Origin: Sarcomyxa edulis
Taxonomy: Eukaryota > Basidiomycota > Agaricomycetes > Agaricales > Mycenaceae
Direction: 5' to 3'
Assembly (NCBI GenBank): GCA_009761415.1
Contig: QUOL01000024.1
Coordinates: 248,001 to 312,000 of the forward strand
DNA length: 64,000 bases
Shown here: one piece after another, positions 1,310 to 21,610 of the stretch
Position numbering within the stretch: position 1 is the stretch's first letter
How the letters are laid out: each line of letters begins with the position of its first letter
The notes under the pieces: model-generated
What the model was told of the DNA's origin: nothing
The model's database searches: none
The model's input: the letters and a program-made list of their open reading frames with translations, nothing else
Program-made: the position numbers and the translations under genes

Positions 1310-1312
1310 AAT

Positions 1313-1400
1313 AGAGAGTTTGCGAAAGCCACCGGTGGCTGATGTAAGCCACCCATGGCCGGTTTTCGCTTGCGATTTTCAATGGCTTTTGAATGGCTTT
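1313..1400. repeat. Left terminal inverted repeat and subterminal motifs
   Basis: Starts AGAGAGTTTGC and holds AAAGCCAC, TAAGCCAC and two TGGCTTT motifs within 90 bp. The right end (21120-21182) shows the same terminal 11-mer in inverse orientation with AAGCCA and GGCTT motifs. Clustered subterminal motifs of this kind are usual transposase-binding sites in cut-and-paste elements. The segment also contains an imperfect palindrome around GCGAAA...TTTTCGC. Confidence 0.55.
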
Positions 1401-1922
1401 ACCCTCTTTCATAGTCCTATTCCTCTTCATCGAACGAATAGCTCAATTCTATTTCATCTCTAATTCATCACGAACCAAGCATAGAGCATCTTCCAGGTCC
1501 ATACTTCCCCATCGGAATGCTACCGTTCTGACCTGACACTGCGAAACAAGATAGTTTTCCAGGACAATAGCTGTATCTACCATGATGGCGAAGGACAGTT
1601 TTCTCATCATCTTCTGAACTATTACAATTACCCAGTGTTCTCCCATCTACGCTGTTGATGTTTTCCCCGTCCTTCGTACTTAAATCACTTTGTACTGCTT
1701 TCTAGTCTATGTCCTTCAGTACGTATCAAATATATTCTGGGTATGTTTTTAAATGCGTGAAATATATGTGTGAGGTCCATATTTTGGAGTCTGAGGTGAT
1801 GAGCATCACTCGAAGTTACGAGTGAATTGACGAGACTGCGTTGAGTATACTCGAACGTCCCTCGGGCAACGCTCGGGGATGTCAATTACTCGATTAGGCT
1901 AGTTAGCGGTAGTCTGTGGTAA
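1401..1922. other. Non-coding left arm of the element
   Basis: No counterpart to these 520 bp exists on the right arm, where terminal repeat and inner arm lie only about 20-40 bp apart. The left arm is therefore longer for reasons beyond the MITE. No coding sequence is recognised. Confidence 0.35.
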
Positions 1923-2526
1923 TTGGCAGGGCCTGTACGGGGACTCGAATTTTAAGGTCACGTGTGTCCGCGGCAATCTCCGGCTTCGGTTTTTTGGTGC
2001 GCGTCTCTCGCGTCGATTTGTACCTTTCCTCGAGTTTGGTCTCTCTATGCATACAAAGCTATGGCCATAACCCACCAAATCTGCTTTCACAACTCCCAGA
2101 CAGAAAAATAATCTCAATTTTCAGGTCCAAATTGGACCTCGGGCTCCTTCATTGCTTGATCTCGTTGAACCAGACTATCTCTTCATTTGCGGGTGCACAG
2201 ACCCACTATTTTATCAAAATCAATACTTACATTGGCTCCCTAGTCTTAAGTCTTGAACAGCCAACCCAGAGGGAGGACAGCAGGGGATCAAGGAAGAGCA
2301 GCACCAGCACTGGGAGTGATCAGGAGATAATATCAGCAGATTGTGCACGATTCTACCCCCGAATCAACATTGAATGCTAGTTTAAATTATTCTCTATCAC
2401 ATTTGTATCCTTGACTAGTATATAATAGACTACATTGCTCAGTTTTGGGTAGAAAAAAGAGACGATGAGACGTCGCGAGATCATCACGTGATCTTAAAAT
2501 CCGAGTCCCTATACAGGGCCTGCCAA
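1923..2526. mobile_element. MITE-like element, about 0.6 kb
   Basis: Imperfect inverted repeats of about 45 bp bound this segment. The left copy (1923-1965) begins TTGGCAGGGCCTG and reaches a CACGTG. The right copy (2485-2526) is its reverse complement with a few mismatches. There is no convincing coding frame inside. Size and structure fit a non-autonomous DNA transposon that inserted in the left arm of the larger element. I could not identify a clear target duplication. Confidence 0.6.
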
Positions 2527-2571
2527 TTGCGTCAGACTCTAATATCGTGATCGACTTTCATCACATCAGAT

Positions 2572-2767
2572 ATCAGACTCCTACCCATCCGTTATGGGAA
2601 GAGTTAAAAGCGAGATCCTAGGATATAGGTCGATGCTAGATCCTTCCTAATCGGGTTTATCTTATCTTATCGTTGTTTGTATGTTGTTTACTCTGAACCT
2701 TGTTTCTTTTAACTCTTCCCATAACGACTGGCAAAATTCTCGGTGGCGGTATGCGCATGTTTGGCTT
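2572..2767. repeat. Left inner inverted-repeat arm
   Basis: This stretch is repeated in reverse complement at 20877-21082. Outer and inner edges match nearly perfectly, and the centre matches with substitutions and small indels. Inside it, a 21-bp sequence starting CGTTATGGGAAG (2590-2610) is repeated inverted at 2706-2726, so the arm itself can fold back. Confidence 0.85.
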
Positions 2768-2853
2768 GCCTCTCGATCTACTCGTCGCCGAGGTGACCGA
2801 ATTACAACCAGCTTTCGTCTCTGCTCTATACTTTTACATTTGCGTCTATTCTG

Positions 2854-5146
2854 ATGTCCCAAACTCGCATGAAACATACAATGCCGGACAGTGATGAAGA
2901 GGCCCAGGCTCAGGTCGAAGCTATATTGGGAATTCGCCCCTGTCTCTGGCAAATTCGTGTGGCTCGCCATGTTTTAGCCATGGACGATGTCATTACTATC
3001 GCCCCTACTGGTGCTGGAAAATCAATGACATATTGGATTCCACTCCTCTACATTAAACATGGCATATCTGTGCTTGTAACTCCTCTTAAACAGCTAGGTA
3101 CACAATTTGTACAGCAGCTTTCTGCCAAAAATATCAGAGCCATCTCGATGACAGCTGGGAATGCAACAAACGAACTCTTTGAGGTGACTAGATACTCTAA
3201 AGCTTCTCCAAAATGTAGTGCTGATAAAACGACAGGAAATTGGCCGTGGCACTTATCGCATAGTCATTGTCAGCCCCGAGCTTCTGCTGAATGACAGTCG
3301 ATTTGATCTCCTCTGGGGCAAAAAACAATTTACGGACAAATTGATCAATGTAGTTTTTGATGAGGCACACGTTATAAGGGATTGGGGAGGCACATTTCGT
3401 GCAGACTATACTAAACTGGGCCCAATCCGGTATCTCCTCGGCCGTCGAATTGGCTACCATCTCGGGACCGCCACAATGCCACCTTCTCTACTTCCGGAAA
3501 TCAAACGAAATCTTCATCTTCGAGAAGACCGCACTACCATCATCCGTCTGTCCACAGATCGCCCAAACATCTTCTACCGCGTACAAAAAATGGTTCATCC
3601 AGTCAACTCGTACCACGACCTCGCATTCCTCATATCCAAGACCTTCAAACCTGGGGACCCATCTCCACAGAAATTTCTTGTGTTCTTCAACTCTCGAGCT
3701 GAAGCACAAGCCGGTGGTCAGGTTTTGCGTGAGAGACTGCCGGAAGAGTTGCGAGACAAAATTAAATGGTTCCATTCTGGTATGACGGACGAGTTTCGAC
3801 AAGATCAAATGTACGCACTTCAGATTGGAGATGCCTTCGGCCATGCCGCCACTGATGCAGCAGGAATGGTACGTTATCTCTTCTATTTTGCTTGGTCAGA
3901 AGCTAATATAACCTCAGGGCATCGATATTCCTGATATCAAATTGGTTGTACAGTACCGTGTACCTCGTTCCTTGAGTACCTTCATACAAAGAGCAGGGCG
4001 TGTGGCTCGGAACCCGAATATACAAGGAACCGCTGTACTGCTTGCGGAGCCGTGCTTTTTTGACGAAGAAAAGGAGAAGGCTGCTCAGAAGGCTGCTGAA
4101 GCATCTGAACGAGCGAAAAAGAGAGTAGCAGAAGGGCAATTTCAGCCAGCATCCGCAAAACGTACAAGACGTACGGCAAACGCACACTGGTCACGCCAAA
4201 ATCTCACGACCGAGGGTGCCTCGGGGTCAGAAGCGGTTGCTACTGGGAGCGACGATCCTCGTCTAAAAATCGAGAAAGCTATGGACGATTTTATCAACGC
4301 GGATCGACGAGAAGAGAGGTGTCGGCGGAAAGTTGCAAACAACCATTTTGGGAACATCGATCTACGTAAGTCTTCTTGATTTGCCTTTTTCGGTCCATCA
4401 AGAAAGAACACTGATCTTATCGCGCATTTTCCCAAGCACCTGTCATTGACAAAGAGTGCTGTCCTCGTTGCTCCCCTCGAATAGCCGTATTTTGTTGTGA
4501 TCTCTGCAATCCAGAGCACGCTATACTCCCTCTATCAGAACCTTACAAAAAACCACCTCGTACAGCCTCCAAATTCATGCCGCCGTCTTATGACCGAGGC
4601 TTACCTGAGAAGAACTTGCGCACAGCTCTTATCGCGATGCGCAAGCAACTCTTCGAAGAGACGGCAAAAGGAGCAGATTTTATTACTCCACAGGCACTCA
4701 TGTCTACCAAGCTCTTAGAACGGATTGTCGACCTCGCTCATTATCAAAAACTCACTACCATCGACAAGCTACGAGACCAAATCACTTGGGCCTTTCTAGA
4801 TACGTACGGAGTCAAAATTGTTGGTCTTGTACAACAGTTTTGCCCTCCCCCGCCTCCATCTTTACCATTCACCACAGTCCCTCTCCAGCCCCGAGCCCAC
4901 AGTGGACCGTCTTCTGCCAGTAACCAACCCACAGGTGCGGGTAGTTCTACTTCTGTCAAGAAACCAAGAACGTGCGGTGCCTGTGGTGGTGTCGGTCATA
5001 ATAGTACGTGATCTCTGGCTCTCCACGACGCGTACTTAGCCATGATATTGATTTATTGACCAGGAAACAACAAGAACTGCCCTGCCTTCTCTGGTCCTGC
5101 GACAAAGTCTACTAGCGAGAAAGAGAACTCGGATCCTTCAACTTGA
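2854..5146 (+). CDS. RecQ-like DNA helicase with C-terminal zinc knuckle
   Basis: ATP-dependent 3'-5' DNA helicase of the RecQ/DEAH type, nuclear by family. Exons 2854-3183, 3236-3868, 3918-4365, 4437-5003 and 5064-5146 give 686 residues with an open frame. Motif I is APTGAGKS (residues 50-57), motif II FDEAH (151-155), motif V TDAAGMGIDIPD across the exon 2/3 junction, and motif VI QRAGRVAR (345-352). A cysteine cluster (CCPRC, then CCDLC) follows, and a CX2CX4HX6C knuckle sits near the C terminus (Cys650, Cys653, His658, Cys665). No motif is lost, so it looks intact. It is shorter than housekeeping RecQ proteins and lacks an obvious HRDC domain. Its stop lies 37 bp from the ancestral stop of the convergent DUF6589 gene. 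The location inside the inverted repeats suggests it is element cargo, perhaps serving replication or excision; that role is inferred. Confidence 0.85.
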
Positions 5147-5463
5147 AGGTATACATCTATTTTTCTGACCACACCCGATGATACTAATCAACACCGATAT
5201 CATTACCAGTTGGAATGTCAACATCCCTGTGGCGAATATATACATTTACATTTCTTTCTTTCTTCTTACTTACTTTCAGGCTCGATATTCTGATGTCACG
5301 ACTTGTCACGTTTCCTATCTCCATTTCATATCTCCGTAGCTACTCATGTAACGCGCTGTGACGCAAAGAATCACTATCATCTTATCTCTTACCATCACCT
5401 AACTACGCTCTAAGCTCCAATCCCTGGTCTAACACCCCGCATTGTGGGCAGGGGCTTTACCTT

Positions 5464-5471
5464 AGGTGAGT
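5464..5471 (+). promoter_or_regulatory. Candidate splice donor in the LTR leader
   Basis: AG/GTGAGT is a near-ideal fungal donor. Together with an acceptor at 14254-14255 it would make a spliced RNA that carries ORF2 first and drops gag-pol. The pairing is inferred from sequence only. Confidence 0.4.
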
Positions 5472-5527
5472 AAACGTTCTTCGAAGCTACTGATCTTCGT
5501 CTAGGAAAGGGAAACGGATTGGGAATC

Positions 5528-5594
5528 GACTTCTCACGGATTGCCTGAGAAGTCAGAGATCACGCCGGCGTTCACGGATTGCCTGAACTGGGCG
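5528..5594 (+). other. RNA hairpin pair, leader of gag-pol
   Basis: Hairpin 1 (5528-5554) has the stem GACTTCTCA/TGAGAAGTC, nine pairs. Hairpin 2 (5563-5594) has the inner stem GTTCA/TGAAC plus an outer CGCC/GGCG. Both enclose the same loop CGGATTGCC. The loop can itself form two G-C pairs below an AUUG tetraloop, with the leading C bulged. A second pair with the same loop and other stems precedes ORF2. Confidence 0.75.
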
Positions 5595-5700
5595 TGTTCT
5601 CGCGAATCTCCTCCCTGTCTCCCTTTAGTGCTCGCCAGCTAAACGTCGCACTCGAATCGTGTCCCTTAAATATTTGTGGGGAACTCGTACGACCACCACA

Positions 5701-5722
5701 AAGGTGGACAAATCCGGACACG
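5701..5722 (+). other. Candidate primer-binding region
   Basis: Directly after the LTR, AAGG is followed by TGGACAAATCCGG. TGG is the usual start of a site complementary to a tRNA 3' CCA end. I cannot assign the tRNA from the sequence alone, and the 4-nt offset is slightly large. Confidence 0.3.
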
Positions 5723-6119
5723 CTACGACGTCCTGGCCGGCCATCCTACGAACGTACAGAATCTGCGTTCAATCCTAGTATATTCCTCCGATTCTACCGA
5801 TCCGCGTCCGCGCGGACATTTCAATCGATCTCGACTCACGGAGTCTCGTATACCAGCGCTAGCAGGGCCTAAACCCAAGCCTAAGCGTTCGGCGCTGCAG
5901 AAAGAACCGCAACAGTCGGTGGAGGAGGAGTTAGCCTCCAGAGAACACCAACAAGCCTTATTTCTCGCCCGTTTGGATAAGCGTCCACTACGATCGAGGA
6001 CTTCACTTGATCCGAGAGAGAGGTTCGACCTAGGTTCTTCATCGGACGAAAGCTTCTCAACTCCTAAGTCCGGAAGGACCCCCCTCGAGAGAGTTCTGTT
6101 CCCATCGGCTGAAGGAGGT

Positions 6120-9100
6120 ATGTCGACTACGGTCACAGCAGCGGAGGAATTGCCAGACGGAGCAACCTTGCCCCTACGGGGAGGGAACGGCTTCCCTCCG
6201 GCGGTGGAGATGGCGCCGTTGCGCTTTGAATTCCATCATGAAAACGAGACGACTCCGTCGACCTCCTCCAGGATAGCGTTGCTTGTCAAAAAGAAGACGC
6301 TGGTCAGGAAAGATGTGGTCGACTATGGGCTTTCGAAGGCGTCGTCGAGACCTCGCTTTTCGTTGGAACCTAACTTAGGGCAGACCCTTGAGGAAACAGT
6401 TAAGCAGATGCAAGACCTCTGTAGAAGAGCGTCTGCGGCGGTTTCCGGTCGAGTCTCGTATTTTCTTATTGACCCTTATGATACGTTCATGTCGTCCCTA
6501 AAAGGATGCGAGACGCTAGAGGAACTCAGCGTAGCTTGGAATTCGATCATTGTTAGATTGGATTTGGCTCAAAAGTATTTCGACAAATATAATCGAGAGT
6601 TCGAAAATCCTGATTCCATCGAGGCATTCTCGCCCGCTTCCACTATTCCCGCGACGTATGATCCGTTGCCTGGATCTCCTAACCCAGTGAAGAGAATGAC
6701 CTACCTGTATAGGAACGTTCCTCACCTAGCGAGTCGCCTAACAAACGAGCAACGGACGGCTCTAAGTGAAGGGAGTCTTATCACTGAGGTGATCGCTCCC
6801 CCGTCTCCTCTCCTACTGGCGTTCCCTACAAGGGAAACGGAGTCAGTCCCAACAGCGACTTCGCATGATGCATTAGGAGATCAGCAAGAGAGAGTTTATA
6901 GGGCTAGGACTAGCTACAAAGCTGGAAAGGAGTTCCAATTGCCCGAAGACGATTCGGGCGTCACGCGAAGAACGAAAACGGGTCGTCGAAGTGTGGCGTT
7001 CGAACCTACCCGCAACGTCGGGATAGGAGGTAGGAATCCTGAAGGTAGGAGACAGTCGGGAGTGTCCGCCTACTCTACCGCTCCAGATACAACGTCAGCA
7101 GGAATAAGCGTACCATTACTCGGAGAAAGGACTCAGTTTAAGGATGAGAGGTCTTTCTTTGCCAAACCGCCATCGGGCGAGAGAAGTGATTCCCCTTGGC
7201 AACAAAGAGATACGTTGTGGGGAGCTGCTACTCCGTTCGGCTATGGCAAACCCCCAGGTGGAACGGGTTATGGGCAACCGCGTAAAGAACCCTACCAAAC
7301 GACGTCCAGAGATTTTAGGAATGAACCCCCTGAGAGGAAAACATCAGAAGACGATGCGGACTCCAGTAGTACGGAACGAAGCTATTTTGGCACGCCTATG
7401 GATAAGGGACCACGGTCCAAGTCCACACCTGCCGCGCCTAGCGATCGCGAAGACCTCGGTCCCAGCGGAAGCAGAGTTCCGCAATTCCCGAGTAACGAGA
7501 ACAATTCGTACAACGACGATTCTCGACCGTTCAGGGGAGAGGGAAATGACCCCCCTGGGGGATACGCCTTCTCGGGTTACGAGGATTATTCGGCGCCGCC
7601 TGTCCCTCCGCCTCAACCAGCGATGGGAGGTGGTGGAGGTGGTGGAGGTGGTAATGACCCAGGCCCGCCAGGAGGCAATGGACCGCCGGGAAACAATGGA
7701 CCACCGAGAGGGAACGGTCCACCGGGAGGGTTTCCTCCTCCATTCGGTCCGCAAGGCGTGCCAGGAGGTCAACATTCTACCAATCGACAGTCGACGATGT
7801 TCGCTCCCTATGGGACCGTTCTTCCTACGATCAAGCCGGAATTGAAACAAGACGATCTACCTACATGGGATGGAGATTTCGGCACGGCTATTAGGTACTT
7901 CTGGGATGTGCAAGAAATCGCAGCCCTGGGAGGTTGGATGCCGCAAGCCCTGGGCTACTGGCTTTGGAAGAAGCTAGAGCCTGGATCAGACATTCAGAAC
8001 TGGTGGCAGATGCTGGATCCAGGGAGAAAAGCGTTCATGAGAGGTCACTACCTCAATTACTTGGAAGTTATCAAACGAGAGTATTTGGGGAAGAGATGGC
8101 AACAACGAATGAACCTGGAGTTCGGGCAACAAAGATTCCGTCAGAGAGGTCACGAGACAGAAACCCCGCAAGGCTTCATTACTCGCCGAATAATGTACAC
8201 GCGGATGCTGGCCGCCGCGGACAACGGAGGCCCAATGGAAGTATACGTTATAATGACACGGGCTCCGCTTTCGTGGCACACAATCCTGAACTTGGAAACG
8301 ATAGTCGATTCCGCTACTCTGTACTCCCGAGTGGTCGAACAGTCGGAGGCGTTGGCGTTCGCGGCTCGAGGGTCGTCCTCCAACGTAATTACCACTGAGT
8401 CATTGGCTGGGCAATTGCGTCGGTTGGGCATCGAAGTCGACTTGAAGTCTAAGTTCGCGGGGCGTCGCGCGAACGCGGTTCAAACCTCCGGAGAAGATAT
8501 GGTGGAACTTGGGGGGGAAGACGACAGCAATCTGGAAACTATCGTCCAGACTTTAGCCACCGACGACCATGTCATTAACGAGGCGTACCAGGCTCTCAAG
8601 AAGGCCCGACTACCTCCTAAGGGAGGATATCCGTTTCCGAAGAATGACGCGGTCACTACTCAAATGGGTCGCTTGCCCCCTTCGCCTTGCAAAGTCTGTG
8701 GGAGCAAGAATCATTGGGACAAGGAGTGTCCCAATTGGAACGTGTACCTGGAGCGTCAAAGGCGGTCAGCCAATCTGGTAGCGTCCCGCTCCGATGAGGA
8801 CGAAACTATCTACTCCAGTGCTTACGGGGTCCTACTGAATCGTCGCCTTACGGAGGAGGATCCTCGGCAGGATGGCGTCAATCGATCGGGTTTTGAATCG
8901 GCCTTTCCGCCTACCTCTGAAGCAATGGAGAGCTTCTCAGACGAGGTGACGGGATATAAGACCGAGGAAGAGGTAGTGCGGGAACGTAGACGCAGGACAA
9001 CTTCCTTGGAGGAAGTAGAGGATGAGTCCTGGGAAACGTACAGACGCATGCCCAAAGCTGAACGTGGATTGATAGACGCGGAAGACGAGAGCCGAGGACC

Positions 9101-12100: not shown

Positions 12101-13853
12101 CGATTGCTTAGAAGGTCACCGATCGGTGTGGGCGGCTACCCGCAGTCAGACTTCCGCGTCAAAGGCCGTTCCCCCTCTTCCGTCCTTGTCTGATGGGGGG
12201 GATGCTAGTGGAGATCAAGGCAATGACGGGACGAGTGAGGTGGAGACGCCGGATAAGCGCCTGGGTACATCTTCGGATGAATACTGGGCAGCGGTGAATC
12301 CCCCTCCAAATCTACATGTGGCTATGTCCCCTGAGCTACGCGCTCAATTTGTCAAAGGGTATGTGGACGACTCCTCCTTCAAACACATATGGGAAGAGGC
12401 CAGCTCTACCCCAGACAAATGGATTCCAGGGAGCCGTTTTTTCCAAGATGAAGATGGCCTCTTGTACTTTGCGAACGCGGACTATCAGCCCCGGCTGTGT
12501 GTGCCTCGATCGTTAAGGCCGTTTGTGCTCAGCGAATATCACGATAGCCCAGCGCAGACAGCTCACGGAGGACCTGAGAAGCTTCATGGGAAATTGAGTC
12601 AGAAGTTTTACTGGAAGCGGATGAAGACGGATATCTTAGCTTTCTGCCGATCATGCGACGTCTGTCAGAAGACGAAGCCTTCTAACTTTAATCGCTATGG
12701 CTATCTAATCCCTAACCCGATTCCCACTAGACCGTATGAATCGGTGTCCATGGACTTCGTGGTTAACTTGCCTATGTCTAACGGTTACAATGCCGTGTAT
12801 GTGGTCGTCGACCGACTCACCAAGCATGCTCAATTTATTCCAACTACCACGGCCATTACATCCGAGGAATTCGCTCGTTTGTTTGTCAAGGACGTGGTGT
12901 GTCGATTCGGCCTGCCAGACAGTATCATAACCGATAGGGACCCGCGTTGGACTTCGGACTTCTGGAAAGCGACAGCAAAGCACCTGAAGACGAAGATGTC
13001 TCTCTCTTCAGCTCACCACCCCCAACACGACGGGCAGACAGAGGTCGTCAACAGACAGCTCGGCATAATGTTGCGAGCTTACGTAGCTAATGACAAGGAG
13101 TCCTGGTCCGATTGGTTACACCTACTGGAGTTCTCTTATAACGGAGCGATACACGGTTCAACGGGGTCGAGTCCTTATTTTTTACTTTACGGCTTTGATC
13201 CCAAAACACCGGCCGACTTTCTAAATCCTCGCTCGTCGTCGTCCGTCAGGAATGAGGCTATCCACGACGACGCCAGAGATTTCCTGTCGGTTCTGAACCT
13301 TCATCGTGAATTCGCAAGGCTGGCTATAGCGGAGTCTCAGAACGACCAGGCGCGCAATTACAACAAGGGCCGCCGACCGCCCCCAGAGTTCAAGGAGGGG
13401 TCTAGGGTTTTGGTAAATCCGCATTCCTTGGAATGGGTCGAATCCAAGGGAGAAGGGAAGAAGCTGGTTCAGAGATGGATTGGCCCCTTCGAGGTTCTTC
13501 AACGGATTAATCCGAACGTTTATCGGTTGAGGATGAGCAACAAGTACCCAGGGTCTCCAGTAGTCAACGTAGAACATCTGAAAGCATATGTGGAATCGCC
13601 GGAGGAGCTAGGGAAGAGGGTGAAATTGCCCGAAACCCGTATCAACAAGCCCGAGGAACCGGAATACGACGTCGAGAAAATCTTGGGACACCGTTTCGAC
13701 AAGAAACGAAACCGCACGCTTTACTTAGTGCGATGGGAGGGCTACGGCCCGCAGTTCGATACTTGGGAACCCGCGATTAACGTCAAGAACGCTCCCTTAG
13801 CCTTGGAACGTTACCGGAAAGGGTTGGCCCGTTCTCTCCCCGCCGAAGGTTGA
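6120..13853 (+). CDS. Gag-Pol polyprotein with chromodomain
   Basis: One frame of 2,577 residues from the first ATG. The long N-terminal part is Ser/Pro/Arg-rich, with a glycine run near 7630-7655. Next come a retrotransposon Gag capsid region (about 7830-8400) and a CCHC knuckle (8688-8730, CX2CX4HX4C). The aspartic protease motif DSGAD is at 9453-9467, reverse transcriptase YIDD at 10998-11009 and RNase H TDAS at 11442-11453. The integrase follows with an HHCC finger (about 12540-12670), the core aspartates near 12753 and 12933 and the usual glutamate after HPQHDGQT. The C terminus is a chromodomain (about 13660-13830, LVRWEGYG), which in chromoviruses targets insertion to marked chromatin. 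There is no frameshift between gag and pol. The frame stays open upstream to 5670 inside the LTR, so translation could begin earlier than the first ATG. Confidence 0.95.
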   Translation: MSTTVTAAEELPDGATLPLRGGNGFPPAVEMAPLRFEFHHENETTPSTSSRIALLVKKKTLVRKDVVDYGLSKASSRPRFSLEPNLGQTLEETVKQMQDLCRRASAAVSGRVSYFLIDPYDTFMSSLKGCETLEELSVAWNSIIVRLDLAQKYFDKYNREFENPDSIEAFSPASTIPATYDPLPGSPNPVKRMTYLYRNVPHLASRLTNEQRTALSEGSLITEVIAPPSPLLLAFPTRETESVPTATSHDALGDQQERVYRARTSYKAGKEFQLPEDDSGVTRRTKTGRRSVAFEPTRNVGIGGRNPEGRRQSGVSAYSTAPDTTSAGISVPLLGERTQFKDERSFFAKPPSGERSDSPWQQRDTLWGAATPFGYGKPPGGTGYGQPRKEPYQTTSRDFRNEPPERKTSEDDADSSSTERSYFGTPMDKGPRSKSTPAAPSDREDLGPSGSRVPQFPSNENNSYNDDSRPFRGEGNDPPGGYAFSGYEDYSAPPVPPPQPAMGGGGGGGGGNDPGPPGGNGPPGNNGPPRGNGPPGGFPPPFGPQGVPGGQHSTNRQSTMFAPYGTVLPTIKPELKQDDLPTWDGDFGTAIRYFWDVQEIAALGGWMPQALGYWLWKKLEPGSDIQNWWQMLDPGRKAFMRGHYLNYLEVIKREYLGKRWQQRMNLEFGQQRFRQRGHETETPQGFITRRIMYTRMLAAADNGGPMEVYVIMTRAPLSWHTILNLETIVDSATLYSRVVEQSEALAFAARGSSSNVITTESLAGQLRRLGIEVDLKSKFAGRRANAVQTSGEDMVELGGEDDSNLETIVQTLATDDHVINEAYQALKKARLPPKGGYPFPKNDAVTTQMGRLPPSPCKVCGSKNHWDKECPNWNVYLERQRRSANLVASRSDEDETIYSSAYGVLLNRRLTEEDPRQDGVNRSGFESAFPPTSEAMESFSDEVTGYKTEEEVVRERRRRTTSLEEVEDESWETYRRMPKAERGLIDAEDESRGPSEYGEEETTSPRKAAYSSATEVNEEYYWKNDGSMPGESVGVSSSDTEWTEGEDVAPESVAPPVFNVNEHPTPTEDDVPVRIPKRRYRPSGSSAVGVSVLMTKGWVSSVKDAPVELRIDSGADVSLISEEFYNSLLSPPSIQQGLKMQLWQLTDKTSSLKGYVTIPIFMKTSEGVLVETEAEMYVVPGMTVPVLLGEDYQQTFELSVERNVERGTHLLFSRTPYAVPVEGATKTQDFGRMRQSAYMTSHFIRAKLHRRNKAKRRQLKRRTAEERSLVRAASDYKLKPHECKPILVTGDLGEERDWLVEKTLLAGNNNSYFAVPNVLISASKPWVPVCNPTDHPRYIRKGEVIGSLKDPAEYFDSPQSQDHLNLLSWETLRIRTVLEASLNVMSTSASDPSPRADSDIGASDEDYGPKTAAMPDPEDLPSSEMKSSVDVGDIPEHLRAQVWEMLERRKGAFGFDGRLGHHPARVHIRTVDGQVPISVPMYGTSPAKRLVIDEQIDKWFSQGVIEESRSPWSAPVVIAYRNGKARFCVDYRKLNAVTIPDEFPIPRQSEILSSLSGAQVLSSLDALSGFTQLEMDPDDIEKTAFRTHRGLFQFRRMPFGLRNGPSIFQRVMQSVLAPYLWIFCLVYIDDIVIYSKTFEDHIQHLDKVLEAIEGAGITLSPSKCHLFYSSILLLGHKVSRLGLSTHLEKVRAILELERPTKVSQLQTFLGMAVYFSAFIPFYASVCSPLFQLLRQGAKWNWGAEQERAFKSTKDALRTAPVLGHPIEGLPYRLYTDASDEALGCALQQIQPILVRDLAGTRTYDRLRKAYDAGLPPPKLTATLSTKIDDSPRSDSWADQFDDSVVHVERVIGYWSRTFKGAETRYSTTEREALGAKEGLVKFLPFIEGEKVILVTDHSALQWARTYENANRRLAAWGVVFAAFPDLEIVHRPGRIHSNVDPLSRLPRGAPVHTSPRVDSEIPIVTDSSRVESLERPFSSVSPAKRATFVAWELDDCLEGHRSVWAATRSQTSASKAVPPLPSLSDGGDASGDQGNDGTSEVETPDKRLGTSSDEYWAAVNPPPNLHVAMSPELRAQFVKGYVDDSSFKHIWEEASSTPDKWIPGSRFFQDEDGLLYFANADYQPRLCVPRSLRPFVLSEYHDSPAQTAHGGPEKLHGKLSQKFYWKRMKTDILAFCRSCDVCQKTKPSNFNRYGYLIPNPIPTRPYESVSMDFVVNLPMSNGYNAVYVVVDRLTKHAQFIPTTTAITSEEFARLFVKDVVCRFGLPDSIITDRDPRWTSDFWKATAKHLKTKMSLSSAHHPQHDGQTEVVNRQLGIMLRAYVANDKESWSDWLHLLEFSYNGAIHGSTGSSPYFLLYGFDPKTPADFLNPRSSSSVRNEAIHDDARDFLSVLNLHREFARLAIAESQNDQARNYNKGRRPPPEFKEGSRVLVNPHSLEWVESKGEGKKLVQRWIGPFEVLQRINPNVYRLRMSNKYPGSPVVNVEHLKAYVESPEELGKRVKLPETRINKPEEPEYDVEKILGHRFDKKRNRTLYLVRWEGYGPQFDTWEPAINVKNAPLALERYRKGLARSLPAEG

Positions 13854-14353
13854 GAGTGGTACTAGGACCACCCCCATTATACCCGTTTTCATTGTACATT
13901 TTGCATAGACTCACGGATTTGTGTTCTTCTTAGGACCTGGCGTTACCGCTGGGTCCCGTTTCACTTGTTCATATCTTTTTACTATTTTCTTCTATGGCCG
14001 ACTATGGTCGGCGGACTTTCGCTTTCATTTTCTTCAAGTTTCAAGCCACTTACCTCTCAGGTGTTCTTCCCGACGCCTTACATCGAATTCTCGACTAGCT
14101 CGGGATCCATCGGAATCACGACCTCGGAACAGGTGGTTACGAGAGTACCGCGTGGTACTGGGTGGCGTGCGTCTTATTGGAAATAGGGAGGTTCCTGTGA
14201 CTTAAATATCGTGGGTTGCGATAACCCCTTCCTTTCCATTTCCCCCATATTTCAGGTGGATAGAACAGTTACGGATTGCCTGGCTGTTCCAACTGAAATC
14301 GATTGAGTCTTCCACGGATTGCCTGGAAGACGGAAATCAAGGGATCATTGACT
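13854..14353 (+). other. Leader of ORF2: candidate acceptor and second hairpin pair
   Basis: The 500 bp between pol and ORF2 contain no gene. A pyrimidine-rich tract ends in TTTCAG at 14250-14255, a good acceptor. Hairpin 3 (14263-14289) has the stem GAACAGTTA/TGGCTGTTC with two G-U pairs. Hairpin 4 (14307-14331) has the stem GTCTTCCA/TGGAAGAC. Both carry the loop CGGATTGCC seen in the LTR. ORF2 begins 23 nt after hairpin 4. Confidence 0.7.
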
Positions 14354-16990
14354 ATGGATACTTTTTTCGTCAGCTCATCAGGGGGGCCTCTTCTACCCAC
14401 CACCCGAGTCGTAAACAACGAGTTTTGGGCAGAGTTCAGCTTTGGCAACCAGAGCATTCCTCTCGAAGCCGCCGACTACAAGGACAGGGACATCTATACC
14501 TCTCACGTAGGCCCCACGGGGGTTCTCCTCGAAATGGAACCAGGTCTCGAACCCAACTGGTGGAGGCTACATAAGTTCTGGGAAGCGTGGACTCCGGTTC
14601 ATGTCGAGGACTATAGGGAAGGTTTGCTGGATCTGAATCGATCAGTCATGCCTGAGACTCTGGAGGGAGGAGCCGAATTGAGGTTCAGAACGCCCTCGAA
14701 ATGGTCTTCGGAGATGAAGTCTCTCCTTAATGCTATCGGAGAGTGCTGTCTCTCGATTCAGGCCGACACCGACTATGGTCGTCACACGCCTACTCCCGAC
14801 TACGTCAACGTCGCCGTCCTTGCTGACGAATACGCCTCCGCCTTCGAAGTGGAATGCGCCGCCGCTCGAGCAAAGAGAGGTGCTTTGTTTGGCATCGGGT
14901 TTCTGACCTGGTGGGTGCTCTCAGCCCAGGACTGGAAGCGTGGCCTTCGCCCGGCAATCGTCAGCATCATCGAGGAGTTGCCTATCCACAATCGTCGCCG
15001 CCGAGGGGTGCTCATCGACCTAGCGCGCGATTGGAAATCGGTTAACATCGCGCATCTCCTCAAGCATGACGTTCCAGTATTCTACCCCTGGACTATCGTC
15101 GAGATCGTCGATCCCCGTTTCCACCTCTACTCTCCGGTGATGTACGACGCTTATCGAGATTACCTGATGACGACTGGGTCTACCAGCGGTTGGTTGGCGG
15201 CGCAAATTCCCGGATTTCTGGAGAAGTTTTGGGGCTTGGTGGAATATGACCATTGGGGCAGGAAAAGGAATCCCACTCCTCGCGTCAGAGCCTCCCCCGT
15301 ACCTGAGGATGTACGCTACACGTCCACAGTTCAGGATTTTCCGGGATGGGCTAGGCGCCCTCTTTCGAACGCTCTCCAAGTCTCGGTGTACTTCAAGCGT
15401 TATCATTACACTGTTCTCGAGGAAGATGGTCAGACCGTAGTGATGTTCTGGCGTTCCCGTCCTCTTAGAGGAGGTGACATGAATTTTTCCCCTGACAATG
15501 TGGAGGAAGACGACGTCTCTGCGATACGCGAAGTTTACAGGGCCAAATACGCTCCATTACCGGGACAGAAGTTCTCTCTCGAGACGGGTCTCTTGCTGAA
15601 CTCAGGGCCACTTCCCACACTCGAACAGCTCTCCACGCTAGCCCTACAGAAAGCCGCCATTGACTCGCATTTGGGGTACAAAGATCCTGACTCAGCCGAG
15701 TCTCAGGACGACGTGGTTATGAGTGAGAACTCTCCACCGCGGACTCCTTCTCCTGAGCCATTGTCGGAGAAACGCCGCCGGAAGAAGAAATCTCGTGCGC
15801 AAAGGCGAGCGGGTCGATTGACTACCAGGGATAGTTCGGTCAGTTCCGACGGGTTGCAAGTAGGGACGTCGGTCTCGTCGCCTTGGGTCTACGCTATGGC
15901 TGCGCCTCGGCTGACTGCAAACAGGAAGTTGTCCGATCGTCTCCATCCTGGGCCCTTACGCAGTACGATTAAAGTTGTGGTTCCTCCTCTTCCCTCTACT
16001 CGGGATCGTAGTGTCGATCGTGCTTCCTTCCTGGCTGATTTGCGGGAGTGGGGACGCCCGTTAACCTCGCCAGGTTCCACTTTCTCGGTTCCTTCGACGT
16101 TCGCGTGGCGGACCGATCTGTTGCGGCACGGCTACTTGTACGTCGACGCTGCTAGTGAGTTCCGCATGCGATACTGGGCCAACTGCTGGGATAGTATGAC
16201 CGACCTTAAAAGGGTCCTCGTCACTGCCATCGAGCATGGCTTGCCATTCCGAATTTGCACAGATCCCAAGGACAACGCAATCTTCTTACCCCCGGGTATC
16301 GAGACTCGGGATTTCGTCGCCGATGTCTATTATTCCGTTGGCGCTCCTGCTCGTACCCTGTCCACTAAGTCGAGCAGCGACGATCTGTACCGCCAGTACA
16401 AAATCAATCTTCTCGATATCCTGCAGCGCCCTCACGCTCGAGCTCTCATTGGTATGGGCGGACCTTTCTCTTGGATCGCGCGCAAATACAGCGGCATGCG
16501 CCTTGTCCGGGAATTCATGTGTGGTCCTTCTATCCAGGTCACCTTGCATCAGAGGGGGTGGTCTGACAAAGATAGTTTCCTCTTCTTCCGCTGTGACGAG
16601 ATGTCGCCTGACGAATTGAAAGCCGTGATGGGCTTTACCGCAGGGGGAACCGGGTCTCGGTCGACCGACTGCACCCTTTGGCCCGACGCGAAGATCATGC
16701 TCGCGTCTTGCCGCCATTATAGCGGGGAATGGAACGAGGATTGTGAGCGCATTTTCAACAACCTATACCTCGAGATGGAGAACGGTGCTGCAGAGTGCCG
16801 CACTCCCGGAGCTTGGGCTCAGTTCTTTCGTTCTGACAATCGGGGAGAATATGCTCCGGCTCAAGAAGTTCCCCAGAGTACGCTGACGGATGCCCTTGCT
16901 CGCCTCCACACGGGGTACAAGGAAACTTGGCACCGCGCAGCTCTGGCGGATCTGGCGGTTCCGGAAGTTTGGGATCCCATCGATGCCTGA
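14354..16990 (+). CDS. Retrotransposon ORF2, unknown 878-residue protein
   Basis: Long intact frame between pol and the 3' LTR, in sense orientation, where retroviruses keep env. I recognise no family. It has no signal peptide and no clear membrane segment, so it does not look like an envelope protein. A basic patch EKRRRKKKSRAQRR about midway could be a nuclear localisation signal, and a Ser/Pro-rich linker precedes it. The two flanking halves are rich in Trp and aromatic residues and look folded. The first ATG is at 14354, 23 nt after a hairpin. It may be expressed from a spliced RNA. A Gag-like, nucleic-acid-binding or host-interaction role is possible, but none is shown. Confidence 0.8.
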   Translation: MDTFFVSSSGGPLLPTTRVVNNEFWAEFSFGNQSIPLEAADYKDRDIYTSHVGPTGVLLEMEPGLEPNWWRLHKFWEAWTPVHVEDYREGLLDLNRSVMPETLEGGAELRFRTPSKWSSEMKSLLNAIGECCLSIQADTDYGRHTPTPDYVNVAVLADEYASAFEVECAAARAKRGALFGIGFLTWWVLSAQDWKRGLRPAIVSIIEELPIHNRRRRGVLIDLARDWKSVNIAHLLKHDVPVFYPWTIVEIVDPRFHLYSPVMYDAYRDYLMTTGSTSGWLAAQIPGFLEKFWGLVEYDHWGRKRNPTPRVRASPVPEDVRYTSTVQDFPGWARRPLSNALQVSVYFKRYHYTVLEEDGQTVVMFWRSRPLRGGDMNFSPDNVEEDDVSAIREVYRAKYAPLPGQKFSLETGLLLNSGPLPTLEQLSTLALQKAAIDSHLGYKDPDSAESQDDVVMSENSPPRTPSPEPLSEKRRRKKKSRAQRRAGRLTTRDSSVSSDGLQVGTSVSSPWVYAMAAPRLTANRKLSDRLHPGPLRSTIKVVVPPLPSTRDRSVDRASFLADLREWGRPLTSPGSTFSVPSTFAWRTDLLRHGYLYVDAASEFRMRYWANCWDSMTDLKRVLVTAIEHGLPFRICTDPKDNAIFLPPGIETRDFVADVYYSVGAPARTLSTKSSSDDLYRQYKINLLDILQRPHARALIGMGGPFSWIARKYSGMRLVREFMCGPSIQVTLHQRGWSDKDSFLFFRCDEMSPDELKAVMGFTAGGTGSRSTDCTLWPDAKIMLASCRHYSGEWNEDCERIFNNLYLEMENGAAECRTPGAWAQFFRSDNRGEYAPAQEVPQSTLTDALARLHTGYKETWHRAALADLAVPEVWDPIDA

Positions 16991-17004
16991 AGAGTGGGGG
17001 GGTT
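16989..17004 (+). other. Polypurine tract
   Basis: GAAGAGTGGGGGGG lies directly before the 3' LTR, the expected primer for plus-strand DNA synthesis. Confidence 0.75.
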
Positions 17005-17477
17005 TGTGGCGAATATATACATTTACATTTCTTTCTTTCTTCTTACTTACTTTCAGGCTCGATATTCTGATGTCACGACTTGTCACGTTTCCTATCTCCA
17101 TTTCATATCTCCGTAGCTACTCATGTAACGCGCTGTGACGCAAAGAATCACTATCATCTTATCTCTTACCATCACCTAACTACGCTCTAAGCTCCAATCC
17201 CTGGTCTAACACCCCGCATTGTGGGCAGGGGCTTTACCTTAGGTGAGTAAACGTTCTTCGAAGCTACTGATCTTCGTCTAGGAAAGGGAAACGGATTGGG
17301 AATCGACTTCTCACGGATTGCCTGAGAAGTCAGAGATCACGCCGGCGTTCACGGATTGCCTGAACTGGGCGTGTTCTCGCGAATCTCCTCCCTGTCTCCC
17401 TTTAGTGCTCGCCAGCTAAACGTCGCACTCGAATCGTGTCCCTTAAATATTTGTGGGGAACTCGTACGACCACCACA
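17005..17477 (+). repeat. 3' LTR
   Basis: 473 bp, identical to 5228-5700. The duplicated ATCCC follows. It includes copies of hairpins 1 and 2 at 17305-17331 and 17340-17371. Read on the minus strand, its end supplies a new C terminus and stop codon to the DUF6589 gene. Confidence 0.96.
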
Positions 17478-20198
17478 ATCCCGCGTTCCAGCTTCTGCGT
17501 CCGGAATAGTACACAGGTCAGTACTCTCCACCAACAGTGCGATTCCCTCGTTAATGGAATCTGCGACTTCGTGCTTTACTGTTCTCCCTAGTGTAAATAT
17601 ATGCGGATTTTCTTTTTTGATATACCTGGCGAGCTTTCTGAGCGTACGCGTCATCCTGGGATGGGAATGCCTAATAGTTCGGTGAGTGAGATAGAAATTA
17701 TTCTCGATGATTTGATGAACTGATCGATAAACTTCAATCAGGACCGATCTCTTGAATACCAAACGCATCGTCCGATTGGGACCCGCCCCCGGAAAAACAA
17801 CCTATTCCCAAGTCGATAAATATTTCCCCCTGCTTCGAACAGTCAAAGAAGAACTCACTTTCATGTAAAGATTATTTCTTTCCATTAACCAGTCATAGCC
17901 CCGGAATCCATTTACTTTTCCCGTTGGATTACATAGCCAATTGTTCAAAATGGCTCGCCTGTGTCAAGCAGTAACACATAAGTGTCGGGGAGAATCCCAG
18001 CCTCAAGCCAAACTTACCGGAGCCGTGGTGGAAATACATGATCAAGGTCTGTCATGAATTTTGTCATGTGCGCAGCATACTTATGCTTTCCAGTTCCTTT
18101 GAAGATCGCTATCCAGTAAGGGAGGACTCGCAATATGCGTCCAACGTCGCCGTAATTCATTGCGTGCGACAATTCAAGGTACAGCAGAGAATGCTGTTTT
18201 CGGAGTTTGTGGTTCTCGAAGCAAGCATCGCGTTCCTCCGCTGGCTTTTCACGCTCGTCTTGGAAGTCTAACCCAGGTAAGTATGTCACAGCCATCTCTC
18301 GAGATGTATTGACGATTACTTCCCAAGACGGCTTTGCCTTGAGAAAGTCGTCAAGTGTGGGGTACCCCAACTTCTCCGCCTCTATTCTCCAACAATCCAG
18401 AATATCAACCCATGTTGTGTGGTGTATGATGTCGTGCATCCTACGAAATCCCGGATTGCTGCCAAATTTCAATGTCTCCTTTGGTCGTAAGTGACGTATA
18501 TACTCGAACATTCCGGTAGCATCCTCTCGTCCCTCCTTTGGTTGAATGTGGGTCCTCCAGATCGCATCAGCGCATGCCATTTTGACGTGAAATAGCCCAG
18601 GAATAAAAACAATCCACCCGAGCCGATTTTTGGCTGTAGCCTCAATTGTTCTCATCCTACGTAGGCCATCAAGCTTCTCCTTTGTCCCTAAATCACCATG
18701 GACTAAGGTGATGTATTCCTCCAGCCTCTGGTCCGGTATGTTCGCCTGTCTCAAAAGACTTTGCAATACTTCCCAGTTCCCATCGTGAGAGCCTTCATCT
18801 GCATTGATCGCGTGCGCTGGATACTGACTTGTTTTTAGCACCGTTAGTGCATCAACAACCTCCGGCAACCCAAGCTTCTCTCGATAAACTTCAAATCCAG
18901 GTTCCTGCTGTACAAGAACATCCCGGAAATGCCACGCAAACGCTCTCAAGAGTGGGCTCAGATCGTCGCCATCTGTCGCAGGTGGCTTGGGCAGCACATC
19001 TCGAATGGTGGGTCTGTATATCTTTGGGTCATCGGCACTGAGATCTTTGTTGAAAGCACTTGTTTCGTGTAGTTCCTTGGTGAAACGTAGGTCCTCGGGA
19101 TCTACATTGACGTACGGTGCGAACGTTGCACCTGTCGCGCTCATGTGAAGGCCCTGCTTTCCGGCCGTTGGCTGTGCAACTTTGAAGTCCATATCAAAGT
19201 TGTCGTAGATCATGTTACAGTACGGCAAGTCCTTCAAGCGCTGGCTGGCGTGTTTTGACAAGGAATTGACCATGTTTTGATTTGTGACAGTGGAGACCGA
19301 GATTCCCATGTGCGCAAGAAGCTCAACGACTTTGTCTGGCACCGTTTTTGACTCGCAAAAAAAACCAATGATGCACTGAAGAGCATTGAAGTTTTTATTG
19401 CAGCTATTGCCCATTATGGAAAACAATACTACGCGCTTCTATAACACGACGTATGTGAGTAGATAGTAAATTACACCTACAGCCATAACGACTCACAATC
19501 AGTAGTAATGCAGCATTTCTCCTCGCGGGGTTCTGCCTTCTGCGCCGTTTTTTGGGTGGCCTCGCCACAGCTCGAGGCGGTTCATCGTCGATATCCATCG
19601 CCATGCTATCCTGGTCTTCATCGTCGTCACTTCCTCCCGACTCTGACTCCTCCGCATCTGATTCCGCATCCGCATCCGAATCCGACTCAGAGCCCGAAGT
19701 ATCCTCTATCTCTTCGTCCCCGTCAATCTCCGCCAGGTTCATTTCACGTTCCTCGTCGAACTCCGCTGTTTCGTCGGGAGCTACTCGTACTCGTGTCGGA
19801 TCGGCATCAAGAAGAACACCGAGAAGGCTCCACAATCTTGGGCACACACGTTCAATCGTCTGGCTCATCTCCGCAACCGAGAACGTTTCAATCTTCTCTA
19901 GATTCGCCTTCCTGCCATTGAGATGGAACCCGACATTTGGCTGAATTAGGGCCACCAGCTCGACGCGGTAAGTTTCCACTGCAACGTCTGTAGCCCACGC
20001 TTGGGCAATATCACTGGCTTGTTCTGAAAAGACATCCAACAGGTCCCGGGTTCTGCGAAGAAGGGCCTCACGATGGTTCCCCGCATGCCCTGTCCGACTA
20101 CGTAGTACGAGAAGGATCAGCTCAAAGATACTGGTGTTGTTCTGGTCCAGAATCGAGAGAATACGGCCAAGAAGATGTGCGTCCATGGTTTTGTGCAT
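17349..20198 (-). CDS. DUF6589 protein, transposase-like, last exon hit by Gypsy
   Basis: Exons 20198-19497, 19438-18018, 17958-17859 and 17801 downward. The N-terminal 234 residues include a long Asp/Glu/Ser run and the basic signal PPKKRRRR. The rest matches the DUF6589 family of agaricomycetes. Landmarks are YDNFDMDF (Asp313, Asp316), HGDLGT (Asp483), FIPGLFH, NYGDVGR (Asp665) and NNWLCNPTGKV. Three well-spaced acidic positions suggest an RNase H-fold DDE transposase; this is inference. Before the Gypsy insertion the last exon ran 17801-17483 and then 5227-5184, giving 861 residues. Now the frame enters the LTR and stops at 17349, so about 14 native C-terminal residues are replaced by about 34 LTR-encoded ones. 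The catalytic part is untouched. The ancestral stop was 37 bp from that of the convergent helicase gene. Confidence 0.8.
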
Positions 20199-20321
20199 AA
20201 AGTCTCTCTTTTACTCATTTATATATGACAGGTAGAGTGAACATGTGTTCTCCATGCGTACCACGGCTGTCATTATGCTTTTGTTAGCCTCCACGAGTCA
20301 TACACCTGGTAAGTTGTAATC

Positions 20322-20723
20322 CTAGGCCCTTATCCTTTCGACTGTCATTGCATCCCCTGAAATCAGTATCGCAGATCCAACTGACGTCTCGAGTGGCCCC
20401 AACACTATTCCGCTGAGTCCAACGATGTTCCCTACTCCCACAAACCTCTCTTCCTCTGAATCATACCCCGAATCTGACTCTCCGCCGTCTACTTCACTCA
20501 TGCCAAATCGCGACTCTGTCAAGGCATCCCCCTCCTCACTTGGCTCTGTTAGATCCGGAAGTTCATCCTCATCCATCTCCGTGATGTCCTCTGAGTCTGT
20601 GACTACCTCACGGCACATATCACGGTCTGTATTCATTCGACGCTTGTTGCGAACGAGCCAAAGGCAGCCGGTCAGAAGTATGGCAGTGAGGGTGATAATT
20701 TGCAGTAGATAGCTTCGATTCAT
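20322..20723 (-). CDS. Small acidic protein with one membrane segment
   Basis: 133 residues from an ATG, intronless. A hydrophobic helix at about residues 5-24 is followed by KRR and then a strongly acidic, Ser-rich tail, so it would be membrane-anchored with an acidic domain. I recognise no family. It lies between the DUF6589 gene and the right arm on the same strand, 124 bp upstream of that gene's start, and is probably a third gene of the element. It could also be a chance frame in a 5' region. Confidence 0.45.
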   Translation of the reverse strand: MNRSYLLQIITLTAILLTGCLWLVRNKRRMNTDRDMCREVVTDSEDITEMDEDELPDLTEPSEEGDALTESRFGMSEVDGGESDSGYDSEEERFVGVGNIVGLSGIVLGPLETSVGSAILISGDAMTVERIRA

Positions 20724-20876
20724 GTTGGAAAAGTTACTAATATCACTAGCAGTTCATGTATTATATATCTACACTACACGCTGGGCCCACGCTTCATGCA
20801 GAGAGGCGTACACGAGGTGCTTCTCGGACTCTCTACATGCCTCGGGCAAGCTCGGGCACTTCGGTTTTGCGCCACA

Positions 20877-21082
20877 GACCAAGCATGCGCATACCGCCAC
20901 CGAGAATTTTGCCAGTCGTTATGGGAAGAGTTAAAAGACATAAGGTTCAGAGTAAACATAAAACAAACAAAGATAAGATAACTTAGATAAGAGATAAACC
21001 CGATTAGGTAGGATTCAGCATCGAACGACATCCTCAGATTTCGCTTTTAACTCTTCCCATAACGGATGGGTAGGAGTCTGAT
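20877..21082. repeat. Right inner inverted-repeat arm
   Basis: Reverse complement of 2572-2767. It has its own inverted 21-bp pair at 20917-20937 and 21044-21064. The spacer between them differs in length from the left copy (148 bp against 137 bp over the fold-back). A TCAGACTCTA motif just outside (about 21092-21101) also recurs near 2532-2541. Confidence 0.85.
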
Positions 21083-21109
21083 CAGATATCTAGAGTCTGA
21101 ATCTGGAGA

Positions 21110-21182
21110 CTAAGTTAGCGGAGCCATCCGGCGGCTTTCCGCAACAACCAAAAGCCACCCAATGGCTTACTGCAAACTCTCT
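21110..21182. repeat. Right terminal inverted repeat
   Basis: Ends GCAAACTCTCT, the inverse of the left end, preceded by TAAGCCA-type motifs in inverse orientation. The AAT that follows is also found before the left end. Confidence 0.55.
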
Positions 21183-21610
21183 AATGTCTCAGTAGTGATA
21201 TACACGCAAATGGCACTCACTATTATGTAAGCAATGTCGCCGACATGAATATCTTGCATGATTGGATTGACTTCAGATGTAGAAAATGTACAACCAACTT
21301 GGTAGGGACTTGAAAATGGGTAGCGGAGTGAAATTACGGTAACGTTGAGACCTACGAATCGGCGCGTATAAGCAACTCGAACCAGTTCACGAACGATCCA
21401 CACGGTCGTTTGAATTTCCTTCTTCCTCCTTCCCGCGCCACTAGCAGTGCACGACACATCTTACATCTCTCGTCGAATCAGAAGTTCTTGAACGTGGCCA
21501 TGAACCTTTTTCTTGTGCTGCAGCACCTTCCTTCGTCGCGTCCGAAAGTGCAGCAGTCTACCGACCCGTACGTCTATGCGTAGACGATTGTTACCTTTTT
21601 TATTTGCAGG
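21183..21610. other. Intergenic, element end to Nudix gene
   Basis: About 430 bp without a recognised gene. It is the 3' flank of the Nudix gene, so the outer element inserted close behind that gene. Confidence 0.5.

Follow-up and report, generated by a model that had tools for sequence, protein, structure and literature searches.

Which of the nested inverted repeats around a RecQ-family helicase gene and a DUF6589 gene bound a mobile element, and do both genes belong to it? This question is raised by a 64-kb stretch of the Sarcomyxa edulis genome (C17:248001-312000; below "the window", in whose coordinates all positions are given unless they carry the C-number of a contig of the same genome). 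The original prediction had drawn a single element from 1310 to 21185, but the features that it combined are split over different layers of stacked mobile DNAs. We are confident almost to the point of certainty that the stretch from 2574 to 21080 is a mobile element with both genes, and we give a probability of roughly 0.82 to the fuller reading that it is a recently mobile two-gene DNA transposon with terminal inverted repeats, most likely of the AcademH lineage.

The boundaries are set by a second copy. At C13:40213-46464 lies the same element, identical to the window copy at 6252 of 6252 bases, free of the Gypsy retrotransposon that interrupts the latter, and flanked by its own 9-bp duplication CGTGACCGG in surroundings unlike those of the window copy. 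The long inner inverted arms that had been noticed before (2662-2764 with 20879-20981, 93%; 2572-2662 with 20992-21082, 90%) are therefore the real terminal inverted repeats of the element, roughly 190 bp long on the left (2574-2764, forward strand) and about 200 bp on the right (20879-21080, 202 bp, reverse strand), with 86.6% identity between them. The window copy (2574-21080, assigned to neither strand; termini CAGACTCCTACCCATCC) begins with CAGACTCC, ends with GGAGTCTG and is framed on the forward strand by the 9-bp target duplication ATCAGATAT at 2565-2573 and 21081-21089. It measures 18,507 bp with the Gypsy element and 6,252 bp without it, and these two are the full copies present in the genome.

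Both genes are open in the C13 copy, where they converge with 37 bp from stop to stop, just as had been proposed for the ancestral state. The helicase gene (2854-5146, forward strand; exons 2854-3183, 3236-3868, 3918-4365, 4437-5003 and 5064-5146) encodes 686 amino acids with DEAD (PF00270, E 6.6e-19) and Helicase_C (PF00271, E 6.2e-16) domains, and the solved structures that it matches best by sequence are those of RecQ and WRN, followed by BLM. A C-terminal CCHC knuckle scores 20.4 bits, under the curated Pfam cut-off of 22, and Pfam searches at E 0.05 gave neither an RQC nor an HRDC domain. The DUF6589 gene, a probable transposase gene, encodes 861 amino acids in four exons in the intact C13 copy (PF20231, E 1.3e-73). 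In the window it occupies 17478-20198 on the reverse strand (exons 20198-19497, 19438-18018, 17958-17859 and 17801-17478, continued at 5222-5184), with its last 12 codons and stop severed to 5184-5222 (reverse strand; coordinate from a BLAST match). The severing element, also correctly recognized before, is a Gypsy long terminal repeat retrotransposon of 12,250 bp at 5228-17477 (forward strand) with identical 473-bp long terminal repeats and a 5-bp duplication, ATCCC, in the last DUF6589 exon. The two genes stand 12.8 kb apart in the window because of this 12.25-kb insertion and are adjacent without it. Upstream of the DUF6589 gene, an open reading frame of 143 amino acids (20322-20753, reverse strand) looks hydrophobic by eye near its N-terminus; it matched no Pfam family and had no homolog in the protein database searched.

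Exact 9-bp duplications were found at nine insertions in all: at six CAGACTCC-ended copies, at two divergent RecQ/DUF6589 elements and at a 687-bp insert described below. A scan for the end motif yielded exact CAGACTCC-type motifs at both ends in six places (the window, C13, C37:102570-103988, C40:579943-581012, C38:1653285-1655199 and C37:1436988-1444813, the last interrupted by an insertion), and the duplication is exact in 6/6. Among 20 places with zero mismatches, 12 are the ends of these six copies and one is an end of the C1a element; lone exact ends lie at C5:540066, C13:231154, C34:1962017 and C39:1313738, and a motif pair lies at C10:263710/265596. With up to two mismatches the scan gave 192 places against 98 for a reversed control, so that many of the weak matches are chance; further, more diverged copies of the transposon may exist. 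The insertion in the C37 copy (C37:1438278-1444703) is 6.4 kb long, has long open reading frames and bears split direct repeats (3277-3470/9229-9422 and 9068-9230/9542-9704 in the fetched piece L022, where the insertion spans 3278-9703); it resembles a DIRS-type retroelement. Outside the window, at C17:242796-242946, 151 bp have TAGTCTCGTTCCCATCCG at both ends; this motif pair has palindromic flanks and no duplication, and as the flanks are themselves inverted repeats, the palindrome exceeds the element-like core.

The two divergent elements both lie on C1. One, of 5,668 bp (C1:2874755-2880422), has TAGTCTCG ends and the duplication TCTATATGC; the other, of 12,995 bp (C1:2518195-2531189, read except for its middle 5.5 kb), has TAGGCTCG/TAGACTCG ends and the exact duplication CCGTCGATG; its RecQ and DUF6589 genes sit close to opposite ends and point outward, in divergent order, unlike the convergent order elsewhere. 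The latter, with both genes in one element, is the seventh DUF6589 locus paired with a RecQ gene, out of at least nine DUF6589 loci detected with the PF20231 profile. The other six paired loci have a convergent RecQ gene within 5 kb downstream, namely C13, C1:2876 kb, C11:625 kb, C19:158 kb, C5:76 kb (a weak RecQ match, E 5.8e-7 with P0121) and the window, counted without its Gypsy element; this makes 6/9, or 5/8 if the identical C13 and C17 copies are taken once. With 14 RecQ-like loci in 35.6 Mb, chance would place one of them less than 5 kb from any one point about 0.4% of the time. Distances between RecQ proteins also track those between DUF6589 proteins (r 0.81 over nine pairs, matched by 8 of 20,000 permutations in a Mantel test that leaves out C5, C6, C10 and C13, the last being identical to the window). 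As identities between pairs span 20-51% for RecQ and 19-61% for DUF6589, the association is old. Beyond this genome, the RecQ and DUF6589 lists from the protein database have eight named species in common among the matches listed, and in four of these both genes lie on contigs of equal size that we took as the same contig, such as the 24,474-bp contig of Gymnopilus dilepis (locus tags CVT26_001802 and CVT26_001805). Amanita muscaria stands outside this count, its two genes coming from differently named records. Pairs both here and in named agaricomycetes thus support a two-gene DNA transposon.

DUF6589 itself is probably the transposase, as suggested by a structural model whose likeness to DDE transposases comes with middling scores. 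One search matched 215 homologs, of which 38 of the 120 listed were aligned with the window's open reading frame (alignment A1). The profile gave a single chance-level match (E 0.47) against PDB sequences, and 44 pattern matches to DUF6589 relatives in viral contigs yielded none that was confirmed. In the open-access literature searched, the word DUF6589, alone or with transposon, was not mentioned, and PF20231 gave only matches that look unrelated by title. This namelessness would suit a MULE-like (Mutator-like element) or undescribed superfamily that joined a RecQ helicase independently of AcademH. MULEs typically have long inverted repeats, which are present here, and ISCth4, which we take to be IS256-type, is among the top fold matches of the model. 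The 9-bp duplication likewise falls within the 4-10 bp given for IS256/MuDR-type elements in the literature. Against such an origin, a MULE transposase domain is absent from all 22 Pfam families matched by the 39 DUF6589 members at E 0.5 (0/39), and the combination of a helicase with duplications of 9 or 10 bp is what PMC10045372 describes for AcademH. We rejected a MULE assignment for want of Pfam domain support in these members and regard a separate superfamily in general as unlikely. Equally doubtful to us is a more sweeping proposal in which DUF6589 would form a transposase superfamily apart from Academ, accompanied by RecQ through much of Agaricomycetes in convergent and divergent orders, so that mushroom RecQ-like genes annotated as "DNA 3'-5' helicase" would largely be transposon genes.

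Several points weigh against an AcademH transposon with DUF6589 as its transposase. Foldseek gave a best E of 0.019 and nothing at or below 0.001, the VIA list has Spt6 (5.9), Pelota (5.1) and p120RasGAP (4.9) interspersed with the transposases, the third catalytic residue of DUF6589 is not fixed, and the AcademH label rests on anatomy. For the two divergent elements, the duplications emerged from searches, over 30 x 30 positions for C1:2874755-2880422 and over about 5.2 kb, for the left flank, at C1:2518195-2531189, where an exact 9-mer would arise by chance in about 2% of cases; each nonetheless abuts a matching end. The C19 locus has inverted repeats and no clear duplication, and clean termini are missing from the loci on C11 and C5. 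In other species, same-contig status was inferred, linkage is loose for three of the four contigs because of their length of 0.5-3.6 Mb, and the two genes lie on different contigs in Mycena floridula, Suillus plorans, Leucocoprinus birnbaumii and Ceratobasidium sp. AG-Ba. Finally, the DUF6589 loci on C6 and C10 have no RecQ gene nearby: on C6 the right end TAGGCTCG is present, and the left partner and RecQ are absent from the 6.1 kb examined.

These last two loci would be expected if RecQ were passenger cargo and DUF6589 alone moved the element, and RecQ genes without other domains are indeed multicopy in fungal subtelomeres (PMC7473861). Yet RecQ is paired with DUF6589 at 7/9 loci, four of them with diverged RecQ proteins of only 25-31% identity to that of the window, and both the co-divergence of the two proteins and the open RecQ frame in a young copy speak against a mere passenger, which we therefore consider improbable, slightly more so than a separate superfamily. 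The C10 locus (C10:418945-420465) has an open frame of 812 amino acids, with the nearest RecQ-like match about 27 kb away, and may represent another arrangement or a gene that was retained.

As a separate observation, seven places (L045-L051, on C35, C32, C33, C3, C1, C27 and C19), several of them on small contigs or near contig ends, share a repeat with about 99% identity. It is at least 1.6-3.2 kb long and includes a segment that resembles the beginning of the DUF6589 domain region (37% over 63 residues); the pieces of it that were examined showed no telomere repeats.

The repeats outside the transposon belong to two further layers. Inverted AGAGAGTTTGC ends at 1313 and 21182 with AAT outside both are real, as is the clustering of AAGCCA/TGGCTT (four in 1313-1450, compared with 39 in all of the window), and both had been pointed out before. 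They are parts of a non-autonomous element that we call MITE-A (miniature inverted-repeat transposable element A), split into a left part at 1313-1909 and a right part at 21113-21182 (both forward strand; outer duplication AAT). In eight other copies, to which the left part is 92.6-95.2% identical, the two parts are contiguous with neither RecQ nor DUF6589 between them; the AGAGAGTTTGC ends enclose 654-664 bp in six copies and about 620 bp in one, and one has no left end. The insert is absent from 8/8 examined copies that cover the insertion point, a count that leaves out three places with MITE-A pieces only (L034, L035 and L036), which fall short of it. These uninterrupted copies, together with the 9-bp duplication AGTTAGCGG on both sides (1901-1909 and 21113-21121, forward strand, defined by the ends and the uninterrupted copies), imply that an insert landed in MITE-A. 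This insert spans 1910-21112, runs from TAGTCT to AGACTA and comprises about 687 bp without the next layer. We call it MITE-B, with a left part at 1910-2573 that is interrupted by the RecQ/DUF6589 element and a right end at 21090-21112 (both forward strand); as the genome holds no stand-alone copy and one partial match of 72%, it is its ends and duplication that mark it as an element.

A single element of 7.6 kb with AGAGAGTTTGC ends, an AAT duplication and both genes inside, although its ends and AAT exist, can hence be dismissed, since these ends occur alone, the insert is missing from every spanning copy and the C13 copy stops at positions matching 2574/21080 without any outer AGAGAGTTTGC ends. 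The predicted size fits the distance between the outer ends once Gypsy is subtracted (19,870 minus 12,255) and not the transposon, which has 6.25 kb, and no other copy with both genes between AGAGAGTTTGC ends was found. The refuting observation named with the original prediction, homology of other copies that stops elsewhere, was in fact made for the outer ends. What stands of the original prediction is a DNA transposon that pairs RecQ with DUF6589, as borne out by the identical copy, the nine 9-bp duplications and the other pairs; its boundaries are 2574-21080 instead of 1310-21185, and its duplication is 9 bp long instead of AAT.

From this nesting, MITE-A would have come first, followed by MITE-B inserting into MITE-A, the RecQ/DUF6589 element into MITE-B and, last, Gypsy into the final DUF6589 exon. 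In the reaction that we propose, DUF6589 as a DDE-type transposase would bind the inverted repeats, excise the element and join it to a target cut with a 9-bp stagger, the RecQ-like helicase would take part as well, its likeliest task being to unwind the ends or repair intermediates, and short copies with the same ends would move in trans. The two identical copies, with known ends and, in the uninterrupted one, both frames open, are well suited for studying whether the transposase needs RecQ and how the 9-bp duplication arises. The analysis also offers a probable function for DUF6589, which Pfam lists without one, as the transposase of helicase-bearing transposons, and some mushroom RecQ-like genes may belong to transposons and not to the repair machinery of the host.

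The earlier view that no such transposon had been described is probably wrong, since AcademH is described as encoding a helicase and making duplications of 9 or 10 bp. KolobokH is fungal and encodes a RecQ 3' of the transposase domain (PMC9587614), but Kolobok duplicates TTAA (4 bp), while we find nine 9-bp duplications of unrelated sequence and RecQ as a separate convergent gene; we rejected KolobokH on duplication length and the missing TTAA rule and give it next to no chance. The subtelomeric fungal RecQ genes share the helicase core and multicopy state (PMC7473861) and differ in being described as subtelomeric genes and not as part of an inverted-repeat transposon, whereas the copy here comes with termini and a target duplication of its own. 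We also drew on PMC12730594, PMC9674265, PMC4522978, PMC8290104, PMC12210899, PMC3411680 and PMC10294476. Judged by anatomy, the element is quite probably of a kind described before, most likely AcademH.

AcademH, reported by Kojima in 2020, is a lineage of the Academ DNA transposon superfamily. Terminal inverted repeats are a trait of AcademH and of the element here (about 200 bp, 86.6%). The comparison is one of descriptions; convergent gene order and CAGACTCC/TAGNCTC termini are observations on the elements of this genome. PMC10799480 assigns transposon helicases of the DEAD/Helicase_C type to AcademH, KolobokH or Helitron together and reports AcademH at low copy number in Basidiomycota and two other phyla; the element here has two full copies and relatives in named agaricomycetes. 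AcademH differs from AcademX by having a helicase instead of a nuclease and creates target duplications of 9 or 10 bp (PMC10045372); the element in the window likewise has a PF00270/PF00271 helicase besides its probable transposase, and nine insertions in this genome, its own among them, have exact duplications of 9 bp.
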